Assembly: GCA_027618835.1 (NCBI GenBank)
Contig: JAQCHZ010000018.1
Location: 1 to 55,934 of the forward strand
Source of the DNA: Chloroflexota bacterium
GTDB lineage: Bacteria > Chloroflexota > Dehalococcoidia > Lucifugimonadales > Lucifugimonadaceae
Reading direction: 5' to 3'
Length of the DNA stretch: 55,934 bases
A model generated the notes under the pieces. It was not told the DNA's origin and ran no database searches. It saw nothing but the letters and a program-made list of their open reading frames with translations. Positions 3,445 through 8,916 of this stretch are shown piece by piece. The stretch's first letter is position 1, and each line of letters starts with the position of its first letter. The translations under genes and the position numbers were made by a program.

Positions 3445-4896
3445 TTAGGGCAGAATCACAGCGTCGATCACGTGGATCACACCATTTGATCCGATGATGT
3501 CAGTGATGATCACTTTCGCACCGTCGATCATTACCGAGCCGTCGTTGACTGCAATAGTGACATCTTCACCTTGGAGTGTTGTAGCTGAGGTTAGCCCAAC
3601 TACCTGCTCTGCCAGTACTGATCCTGAAATAACGTGGTAGGTCAATACATCTGTCAGTGCAGGAATGTCCTCAAGCAGACCGGCCACTACACCATCAGGA
3701 AGAGCAGCGAAGGCGTCATCTGTCGGTGCGAACACGGTGAAAGGTCCGTCTCCAGAGAGTGTCTCAACCAGACCCGCTGCCTGAAGGGCAGTTACGAGCG
3801 TCCCAAATCGTCCGTCTTCGACAGCAATGTCAACGATGGTCTTAGATACCACCATAGAATCCATGGCATCTTCTGGCGTTGCCAACGAAGCTGCGATTGC
3901 GGAGGGCAGAATCACAGCGTCGATCACGTGGATCACACCGTTAGAACCGATAATATCGGTTATCAATACAGTGGCTCCATCGATCATCACATTCCCAATA
4001 GTGAGGGGTGGTCGATTCGGATCAATCACTTCGATCGTAACTTCTTCACCTTGAAGCGTAGCTGCTGAAGTCAATCCGACTAATGTCTCGGCAAGGACTG
4101 TTCCTGATACGACGTGGTAAGTAAGAACCTCTGTCAAACTTGGAATATCTTCTAGAAGCCCGGCAACGACGCCGTCTGGTAACGCTGCGAAAGCGTCGTC
4201 AGTTGGAGCGAATACGGTGAACGGTCCTTCACCTGAAAGCGTAGAAACCAGATCTGCTGCTTGTAGGGCAGCCACAAGAGTTTCAAAACGTCCGTCTTCA
4301 ACGGCTATGTCTACGATAGTTTTTGTTGCTTCTGGACTCGAAAGCGAAGCAGCGATTTCTGTTGGCAGTATCACTGAATCTATAACATGAATTACACCGT
4401 TAGAACCGATAATATCGGTTATCACTACTGTGGCTCCATCGATCTTCACACTCCCATCGATCACTTCGATCGTAACCTCTTCACCTTGAAGCGTAGCTGC
4501 TGAAGTCAATCCGACTACTGTCTCGGCAAGGACTGTTCCTGATACGACGTGGTAAGTAAGAACCTCTGTCAAACTTGGAATATCTTCTAGAAGCCCGGCA
4601 ACGACGCCGTCTGGTAACGCTGCGAAAGCGTCGTCAGTTGGAGCGAACACGGTGAACGGGCCTTCACCTGAAAGCGTAGAAACCAGATCTGCTGCTTGTA
4701 GGGCAGCCACAAGAGTTTCAAAACGTCCGTCTTCAACGGCTATGTCTACGATAGTTTTTGTTACTCCCATCGGCTGCTGCGTTGGCATCGGTGATGTCGT
4801 CGCGACAACATCCGGTGTCGTCTCCTCGTCTGAGGAACAAGCAACCAGAACCATTGTGATGGCTCCGATCAATAAGAGAGCTCCGAACTTTTTCAT
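3445..4896 (-). CDS. Lipoprotein with three fasciclin (FAS1) domains
   Basis: 483 aa from the ATG at 4896, chosen over an upstream in-frame start because GGAG lies 8 nt before it and a clean signal peptide follows (lipobox LVAC, then SSDE). Three FAS1 domains follow, each opening with [13 protein letters not shown], with a central [19 protein letters not shown] and ending [15 protein letters not shown]. Domains 1 and 2 are almost identical even at DNA level across about 290 bp (near 4050-4340 and 4480-4770), showing a recent internal duplication or gene conversion; domain 3 is more diverged. Domain 2 has a short [10 protein letters not shown] insert. FAS1 proteins are extracellular adhesion modules. 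It lies in the minus-strand set upstream of folE. Confidence 0.9.
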
Positions 4897-4953
4897 AATC
4901 GTTCTCCGTTTTGTGAATAATTTTCTATGTGCCAACTGCTAAAAATATAGCTT

Positions 4954-7128: not shown

Positions 7129-7150
7129 GGTTCTGTCAGAACTTAGCACG
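7129..7150. repeat. Solitary transposon-end sequence
   Basis: GGTTCTGTCAGAACTTAGCA matches the family end sequence. No partner was seen in the next 800 bp, so it is a relic end. Confidence 0.5.
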
Positions 7151-7352
7151 ACCATGAAACGCAGCCAAACTGAATAGATAATCAATCCATGGATTGGACC
7201 TGACCGCTCAATCATTAGAGTCGACCAATTGTCGGCGAAGGTTTCGGGGTTGTGGGCGAAGCTGTTGCTCTTGTGAGACTGCTTGGATAAGTGTTCATCC
7301 CCGCCACCCTCACATCCTGATATAGCAAGGTGCGGGCTTGATCGATCACTAC

Positions 7353-7715
7353 TCAGGAAGCCTCACGGAACAAGAACGCTATTCGACCTCGATGTTTGGC
7401 GAACAAACGGTAGAACGGTTCTAGAAGCATGCTGGCGAATCGCTTTTTGCATATCCTGCCTAGAAATCCTGAGAAGCCTCCGGTACAGCTGACGATCAAT
7501 GAAATCGCCTGCGCACCGTAGAAGACCGCACCATTACCATCGACTGCAACAATTGTGCGGGCAGCCTTTGTGGGATCTATTTCAGGTGAAACTGCATGGA
7601 CCGACTCTCGGTCATTTGGATGAAAATCCACTTTTCCATTCAGATCGTTCCGCTGTACCCAGCGAATAAACGCCCGTCACACAGCACATAATGCGTCGTA
7701 TAAAGCGATCACCAT
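7353..7715 (-). CDS. DCC-family (DUF393) thiol-disulfide oxidoreductase, candidate selenoprotein (TGA at codon 13)
   Basis: 120 aa read through one TGA (7677-7679). From ATG 7715, with GGGAG about 6 nt upstream, it reads LYDALCAV-TGA-RAFIRWVQRND and then an uninterrupted DUF393 domain (TIVAVDGNGAVFYGAQAI, a Phe/Leu-rich helix, AKHRGRIAFLF). DCC proteins begin YDGxCxxC; the TGA falls exactly on the second cysteine of the pair, giving CxxU. Seventeen nt after the TGA the mRNA forms a 7-bp stem with a GGUA loop, as expected for a bacterial SECIS. There are no frameshifts. Likely role: cytoplasmic redox reactions on disulfides. The alternative is a nonsense-mutated pseudogene; the exact position and stem-loop argue against it. 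No sel genes lie in the window. Confidence 0.75.
7649..7666 (-). promoter_or_regulatory. Candidate SECIS stem-loop in the DCC gene
   Basis: On the mRNA the arms UUCGCUG and CAGCGGA pair over 7 bp (one G-U) around the loop GGUA. The loop starts 17 nt after the UGA and opens with GG, both within the accepted ranges for bacterial SECIS elements. Confidence 0.65.
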
Positions 7716-8022
7716 ATTTCTCCCATCCAGCTTTTTGTAATTGTCCTGTTAGAGCATCATATTTCAGAGTCGTTATCTCTACGCAAATAACTACTATTTT
7801 CCAGCAACTCCCTAGCTCTTCCCAAATTAGCCGGTAATCGGACGCAAAAAATGTTCTAGCCAGTTCATTGCCAAAACCATAGCGGCGCGTATGGGTTATC
7901 CGCATCACATGGATACCCGCTACTGCCGATAACCCATACGCTCCATGTGGATACGCTCTGTGGCTTCATAATTGAGCCACATGAATTTGGAATTACTTAG
8001 TAGAAATTAGTAATCTCGACGA
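7716..8022. other. Intergenic stretch with a strong inverted repeat
   Basis: About 300 bp upstream of the DCC gene and of the small plus-strand ORF. It contains the 14-bp inverted repeat at 7887-7941. A minus-strand reading frame across 7716-7908 shows no domain and is not called. Confidence 0.5.
7887..7941. repeat. 14-bp perfect inverted repeat
   Basis: GCGTATGGGTTATC (7887-7900) and GATAACCCATACGC (7928-7941) are perfect complements with a 27-nt spacer. The related strings CATGGATACC and CATGTGGATACG flank the right arm. There is no T-run. It could be an operator, a transposon end or an RNA hairpin. Confidence 0.5.
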
Positions 8023-8265
8023 ATGGACAACACATCTACTGAAATTACGCTGTCTCGTAGGACTCTATTACGAATCGCTTCCTTGCTTACCGACCCTGAA
8101 CGAAGCAATCAGGAATGTCTGGTCGAAGCACAAGCACTGAGGCGGACACTGGTACACATAAATGAGGCTCGATCACCTGCGGGGCCACTAGTCGTTGCCA
8201 CCGCACTGGTCCTCCGGGCGAGCAGGCATAGGAACTGGAGGTTGAGATGCCTGATCCCTAAGTAG
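8023..8265 (+). CDS. Hypothetical protein, 80 aa
   Basis: ATG start, with no clear ribosome site. The first 50 residues are helical and polar (SRRTLLRIASLLTDPERSNQ); the end is basic. No recognised domain. It may be a genuine small gene or chance, and it lies between two minus-strand redox genes. Confidence 0.25.
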   Translation: MDNTSTEITLSRRTLLRIASLLTDPERSNQECLVEAQALRRTLVHINEARSPAGPLVVATALVLRASRHRNWRLRCLIPK

Positions 8266-8422
8266 CCACCCCCAGAAAACTGCCCGCCATCAAGCCCGGT
8301 GCGTTTGCTGTAAAGAGTAGGCGTGAGCAATCTAGATAAGAACGTGAGACCCCGATATCTAACTTGGACTACTTATTCTATTTCGATGGGCGGTGCGTTC
8401 AAATTGTCTGGAGCAATAATTA

Positions 8423-8888
8423 TTAGGTTGCTAATTTCTTTAATACCCCTAGAACATCATCAACGTGTCTCGTCACATTGATTTCGTGCGTGAAAGCTCC
8501 CTGGCAAATTCCGACCTTATCAATGACGAACGTCGCCCTCCGAAACGGCACTAACCCGAAAGTCCAGCTGCGCTTTACACCAAACAATTTGCTCAAATCG
8601 CCATCTGAATCCGAAACAAGGTTAAACGGAAGACCATTCTGCTCACGAAACTGTCTATGGCTTTCAGCGTCGTTGGGGCTTACACCGATTAGCACGGCGT
8701 CATGACCCAAGATTTCCTCGTAGCTGTCACGGTACGAGCGGGCTTCAAGTGTTCAGCCACGGGCAAAGTCCTTCGGGTAGAAGTAAACAACGATATTCTT
8801 TTTGCCTTTGAATTCCGACGTTCGAAACGGCTCACCATTGTCTAGTTCCGCCTCGAATGCAGGGATATTCTGACCGATTTTCAACATG
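8423..8888 (-). CDS. Peroxiredoxin (AhpC/TSA, BCP/PrxQ type), candidate selenoprotein with TGA at the peroxidatic position
   Basis: About 153 codons. The frame reads VVYFYPKDFARG-TGA-TLEARSYRDSYEEI and continues through GHDAVLIGVSPNDAES to the stop. In this family the block is YPKDxTPGCTxEAxxFRD; the TGA (8753-8755) sits exactly at the catalytic Cys. A 6-bp stem CUCGUA/UACGAG with a 10-nt loop containing GUGACA begins 20 nt after the stop, a SECIS-like hairpin. It would reduce peroxides in the cytoplasm. Oddity: the only ATG with a ribosome site (8888, AGGAG upstream) is one base out of frame through an A5 run, so there is a start-proximal frameshift, real or from assembly. A decayed gene is therefore possible, but the TGA position is hard to explain by chance. 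The DCC candidate lies 0.7 kb away on the same strand. Confidence 0.6.
8717..8738 (-). promoter_or_regulatory. Candidate SECIS stem-loop in the peroxiredoxin gene
   Basis: CUCGUA and UACGAG pair perfectly around a 10-nt loop (CCGUGACAGC). An inner C-G pair could close a six-base loop starting with GU. The spacing from the UGA is 20 nt, within the usual range. It is weaker than the hairpin in the DCC gene. Confidence 0.5.
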
Positions 8889-8916
8889 ACTCTTTTAGTG
8901 CTCCTATTCTGGTTTG

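Follow-up and report, generated by a model that had tools for sequence, protein, structure and literature searches.

The gene at positions 7353 to 7715, on the minus strand, of the 55,934-nucleotide stretch of DNA that we analyzed as a whole (the window) very probably encodes a selenocysteine (Sec) form of a DCC1-like, thioredoxin-type protein, in which an in-frame UGA would be decoded via SelB and an RNA hairpin; the product is likely to be a CxxU reductase, and UxxC and UxxU forms occur elsewhere. An earlier sequence-only reading of this DNA had proposed Sec at this site, and our results support it. That reading located the gene correctly without giving its strand, and it rightly described a gene intact from ribosome site to stop save for one TGA. 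The frame opens with an ATG at 7715, preceded by a GGGAG (7720 to 7724, minus strand) that by eye is a probable ribosome-binding site, and runs through 120 codons, with UGA counted as Sec, to a terminal UGA (7353 to 7355, minus strand) that has no SECIS-like hairpin behind it. The only stop between this ATG and the terminal TGA is the TGA at 7679-7677, codon 13, in the context YDALCAV-U-RAF, and it is there that an ordinary ORF listing breaks the gene. Read with Sec, the 120-residue product begins MVIALYDALCAVURAFIRWVQRNDLNGKV. With Cys put at the UGA, residues 5-112 match the Pfam family PF04134, DCC1-like (E 4.5e-16; 60.5 bits, the cut-off being 27.8), which we take to be the family that also goes by YuxK, COG3011 and DUF393. 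As claimed earlier, the UGA falls on the second Cys of the CxxC motif of the family, a column at which homologues have Cys or UGA. The window protein scores above the gathering threshold and has its motif in the same DxxCxxC-type position, but it carries CxxU in place of the two-cysteine CxxC, one motif Cys being replaced by UGA/Sec, and other Chloroflexota have UxxC or UxxU; judging from its sequence, it is a Sec variant of the DCC1-like family.

The UGA is conserved among close relatives. The source genome shares its genus with Candidatus Lucifugimonas marina (SAR202, Chloroflexota), which the NCBI taxonomy places in Chloroflexota, Dehalococcoidia, SAR202 cluster. Among 60 relatives searched, 19 genomes have a DCC match, and eight of these matches, own genome counted, contain exactly one TGA, at the identical codon; these eight are the nearest homologues. 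The other 11 have no stop and show Cys in that column. The alignment of homologues that the sequence-only reading called for therefore gives Cys or UGA at codon 13, and we encountered neither unrelated residues nor further stops in close relatives, nor an absence of sel genes. Identity to the window protein among the UGA forms ranges from 93 to 42%. The 19 genomes of the genus itself comprise seven with the Sec form, one with a Cys form and 11 without a match, the eighth Sec form belonging to another genus of the same family. A scan of the named genomes found eight loci, seven with UGA and one Cys form (L056); one UGA locus is that of Ca. Lucifugimonas marina JH1073, a complete genome (CP046147.1), the rest being from metagenome-assembled genomes (MAGs).

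This conservation bears on the suspicion that the UGA is a nonsense mutation or a sequencing error, the gene being a pseudogene or starting downstream at GTG 7631, which we consider very improbable. Such a reading could draw on the dN/dS downstream of the UGA in the closest pair (G000 versus G013), which is 0.74 with very few changes and a dS of 0.04, and on the 92-residue ORF that opens at GTG 7631. Against it, the identical UGA codon recurs in eight genomes, one of them complete, the hairpin behind it is conserved and covaries, and dN/dS is 0.13 in the pair L010/L011 and 0.26 in L012/L014 (two wider pairs were saturated), while a product started at GTG 7631 would be without the entire redox motif. 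We reject it on these points and retain the reading as a Sec gene.

Our surveys of Sec-DCC genes, all of them in Chloroflexota genomes, show that the window gene is one of many. An active-site UGA is present in the DCC gene of 43 genomes, of which 16 have CxxU, five UxxC and 22 UxxU. In a sample of 400 Chloroflexota genomes, 136 gave a PF04134 match, and 23 of these, own genome included, have an active-site UGA (5 CxxU, 5 UxxC, 13 UxxU); a class search of 393 genomes added two UxxU genomes, a search through the full class of G694 (110 genomes) seven UxxU and four CxxU, and the relatives' search seven CxxU. The TGAs of G453, G216, G292 and G370 were rejected as Sec, being C-terminal stops. The set used for the comparisons below was drawn from 137 HMM domains, three of which lack the motif pattern and were left out (L079, a Cys form; the second L135 copy; and L175, a true CxxU gene whose domain was located too late in the sequence); after removal of duplicates, 116 unique genes remained, 42 Sec and 74 Cys. 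The second DCC-like stretch of L135, which has no motif and adjoins the Sec-DCC gene (minus strand, about 473-1309), is perhaps a decayed duplicate.

Directly behind codon 13 lies the hairpin UUCGCUG-GGUA-CAGCGGA (7649 to 7666, minus strand), with seven base pairs and a folding energy of -9.2 kcal/mol. The 7-bp stem and the GGUA loop had been correctly recognized, but it is the apical loop (7659-7656) that lies 17 nt after the UGA, a distance previously given for the start of the stem, which is at 10 nt. According to the available part of a 2026 review (PMC13188914), the bacterial SECIS (bSECIS) model requires a loop of 3-9 nt with an early G, lying 16-37 nt from the UGA, and an energy of -7.5 kcal/mol or lower; the window hairpin agrees with it in loop size, G, distance and energy, and our own scan confirmed the fit that had been asserted. 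All eight SAR202 Sec genes have a stem of 6-7 bp whose GGUN loop lies 17 nt past the UGA, within the same model. The earlier reading had argued against a chance coincidence of TGA and hairpin. The two strands of the window together contain 2134 TGA trinucleotides; 31 have a contiguous SECIS-like hairpin of at least 5 bp and -7.5 kcal/mol or lower behind them, and just three of these, the Sec-DCC gene among them, also had open flanks (eight codons before and 50 after).

A strict scan of the 116 unique genes, limited to contiguous stems and to the position behind the second motif codon, found a hairpin in 35 of the 42 Sec genes (CxxU 15/15, UxxC 3/5, UxxU 17/22), the remaining seven having no contiguous one, and in 4 of the 74 Cys genes. 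The loop of the most frequent UxxU hairpin begins 18 nt past the second UGA and 27 nt past the first, and since both distances lie within 16-37 nt, both UGAs fit the published model. A single hairpin would here have to serve two UGAs 9 nt apart.

We considered whether the conserved stem might be a by-product of the peptide RWVQR, with no RNA function. The codons of this pentapeptide, which the stem encodes, largely fix the stem, and four of its seven pairs are invariant, the seventh (14-31) being formed in just 4 of 15 sequences. RWVQR is present in all 15 CxxU genes, from both lineages, and in L175, which lies outside the count, but in none of the 74 Cys genes. When each SAR202 gene was recoded synonymously for its own peptide with window codon usage, a stem of at least 6 bp arose in 7.6-9.6% of recodings per gene (if codon usage was taken as uniform, 5.5 to 6.8%), yet all eight genes have one, though these chances do not simply multiply because the genes are related. 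The third-base pairs covary: the 15 distinct CxxU sequences score 0.248 for covariation, a value that no shuffle out of 500 attained (mean 0.079) and that lies above all six slid controls (highest 0.139). Pair 15-30, which is paired in 15/15, varies among G-C, C-G, U-A and U-G, and pair 18-27 among C-G, U-A and U-G, while each of the four letters is found at the last loop position. Other measures are less striking, as pairs changed on both sides and pair types were equalled by 46 and 19 of 500 shuffles, respectively, and the folding energy over 36 nt is unremarkable in L010 and L011, where it is matched by 28% and 13% of the synonymous recodings. An origin of the stem in the peptide alone is, in our judgment, scarcely credible. 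On this comparative evidence the hairpin is under selection, and RWVQR is a case of a protein bent by its RNA.

The machinery for Sec insertion, for which the sequence-only reading had suggested looking, is present. The source genome (2.4 Mb, 41 contigs, 89% complete) contains SelA, SelB, SelD and tRNA-Sec, all over cut-off (427, 318, 366 and 66.4 bits, respectively), and the tRNA, with anticodon UCA, is called tRNA-Sec by both ARAGORN and Rfam. Its selD (L088, G000 C41) itself contains one in-frame UGA, and 32 nt behind it follows a hairpin of 8 bp whose loop is GGUUU. SelB and a UGA-containing SelD are over cut-off in all eight Sec-form relatives, and tRNA-Sec reaches at least 60 bits in just five of them; our guess is that the missing ones are MAG gaps. 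Two UxxU genomes (G083 and G113) have SelB over cut-off together with tRNA-Sec(UCA). A wider survey took in 80 of the 150 genomes initially named, namely every Sec-form genome beyond those already tested (33) and 47 with the Cys form, and found SelB over cut-off in 27/33 versus 31/47, so the Sec machinery is common in Chloroflexota and weakly tied to the Sec form.

A UGA-reading tRNA would also be expected if the whole genome used UGA as an ordinary sense codon, reassigned to an amino acid such as Trp or Gly, although the tRNA found is called tRNA-Sec. We regard this as the remotest of the explanations. Five of the 29 window ORFs of at least 200 aa, which are mechanical ORFs and perhaps not all genes, end in TGA; 28 of the 42 Sec-DCC genes scored terminate at UGA, with no SECIS-like hairpin behind the terminal UGA in any of the 28; and homologues have Cys at the UGA column, not Trp or Gly. 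Reassignment was rejected on these points.

The distribution of the motifs points to exchange between Sec and Cys. Three genomes of the same family (G023, G033 and G024) have CxxC at the site, and their genes fall within the Sec clade of SAR202, next to L012 and L014 (98/89 support), although the tree program flags odd composition for all three and a long branch for the G024 row (L019). The best SelB and SelD matches of these three genomes are under cut-off, and the best tRNA-Sec matches of G023 and G033 are, according to ARAGORN, tRNA-Ser(GCU). The comparison suggests that Sec gave way to Cys in genomes lacking the machinery. The tree was built from 75 of the 116 genes (HMM score of at least 72) with motif and hairpin residues masked, leaving 106 columns; on this masked alignment, forcing the CxxU genes of SAR202 and of family f131 into one clade was rejected (p-AU 9.2e-6). 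The presence of CxxU with the same RWVQR hairpin in two lineages outside a common clade would imply either that it was gained twice or that an ancient Sec ancestor was followed by repeated loss to Cys, the number of gains and losses being uncertain in so short an alignment, in which 25 of 72 inner branches are open. In f131, where Sec forms are common, L151 (G611) has CxxC with a shorter stretch behind the motif and with SelB present, and G772 carries one UxxU copy and one CxxC copy (L141, L153). We lean, with some reserve, toward a broader picture in which DCC would be an undescribed selenoprotein family across Chloroflexota that has sampled all four sites (CxxC, CxxU, UxxC and UxxU), with, in UxxU, one hairpin serving two UGAs 9 nt apart and a diselenide as the working center, and with CxxU gained twice or kept with repeated loss.

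Also beyond what had been noticed earlier, along with the UxxC and UxxU forms in the phylum, a second UGA-containing gene lies nearby. About 700 nt upstream of the Sec-DCC gene, on the same strand, an AhpC/TSA peroxiredoxin gene (8423 to 8887, minus strand; PF00578, 104.7 bits), a possible partner, has an in-frame UGA at 8755-8753 (KDFARG-U-T), presumably where Bcp-type peroxiredoxins have their peroxidatic Cys, and about 22 nt behind this UGA there is a mismatched stem with a GUGACA loop. Ca. L. marina has a peroxiredoxin gene at the corresponding position, 64% identical and with this UGA conserved. We find it possible, if rather doubtful, that Sec-DCC is the electron donor of this Sec-peroxiredoxin. 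Strand, arrangement and the UGA of both genes are conserved at two of the eight Sec loci (G000 and G013), but the gap is long, tblastn did not find such a peroxiredoxin in the available flanks of the other six, and no partner gene family is common to all of the 31 loci compared; in Pfam, the ORFs neighboring L134 and L138 matched nothing, and the ones next to L132, L051 and L128 matched unrelated families. The partnership is a lead only.

Other features of the window deserve mention. The segment with both genes (7129-8908) matches Ca. L. marina (L049) in reverse, with 86% DNA identity, and 9218-10243 matches it directly, with 91%, a reverse match beside a direct one that indicates an inversion between the two species. 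Between the two genes, at about 7880-7948, lies a perfect-looking palindrome (GCGTATGGGTTATC ... GATAACCCATACGC), perhaps a terminator or a repeat element; an Rfam search of 7200-8000 gave just six sub-threshold miRNA-like matches, five of them at this palindrome. Further away (3445-4935, minus strand), a 496-residue protein has, by eye, three near-identical fasciclin-looking repeats and a lipoprotein-like start. No match to P0001 turned up among the plasmids of the collection.

How might the protein work? SelB with Sec-tRNA(Sec) would bind the GGUA-loop hairpin just behind codon 13, and the UGA of codon 13 would be read as Sec and the gene's final UGA as termination, as conservation, covariation and machinery suggest. 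The CxxU product would most likely cycle between a selenol/thiol pair and a selenenyl-sulfide, most likely reducing disulfides or oxidized peroxidases in the cytosol, a role and a cycle suggested by the family, the motif and, by eye, the lack of a signal peptide. The predicted fold is thioredoxin-like and places the motif where the first helix begins. The structure model has a pLDDT of 74.7, and the top Foldseek rows against the PDB are GST, Spx, mycoredoxin, NrdH, thioredoxin and PDI, with none of the 571 matches reaching an E of 0.001; by sequence, nothing in the PDB was significant.

The available parts of the literature place Sec-DCC near known selenoproteins without naming it. Sec thioredoxin, glutaredoxin and SELENOW-like proteins are likewise small redox proteins, of other Pfam families, SELENOW-like being CxxU and thioredoxin and glutaredoxin UxxC in the table of PMC13188914. 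The plant thioredoxin DCC1, in the accessible text of PMC6603150, has its DCC1 name and a redox function in common with the family, but it is a plant protein. A 2006 survey counted three selenoprotein families in Chloroflexota (PMC1794560, in its available text), and some later selenoprotein papers do not name Chloroflexota in the parts available. The table of 119 prokaryotic selenoprotein families and subfamilies in PMC13188914, as far as it was accessible, has no DCC or PF04134 row; DCC is absent from the available texts of PMC13188914, PMC2398784, PMC12013277, PMC5029168, PMC9312934, PMC9402790, PMC1088965 and PMC1794560; the accessible text of the SAR202 cultivation paper (PMC10444878) contains no word starting with "selen"; and NCBIfam 20.0 gave no match over cut-off for six Sec-DCC proteins. 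Our search found no literature linking selenoprotein or selenocysteine to DCC, DUF393, PF04134, COG3011 or YuxK, and because preprints, subscription papers and supplements lay outside its scope, we limit the claim to saying that Sec-DCC is apparently a selenoprotein family not yet listed.

If true, a widespread and apparently unlisted family would be added to the prokaryotic selenoproteome, from a newly cultivated ocean lineage and Chloroflexota-wide. The natural series CxxC, CxxU, UxxC and UxxU within one domain of ~110 residues would show what each selenium atom buys, and genes in which UGA is read both as Sec and as stop, one small hairpin apart, would offer a clean test set for SECIS rules.
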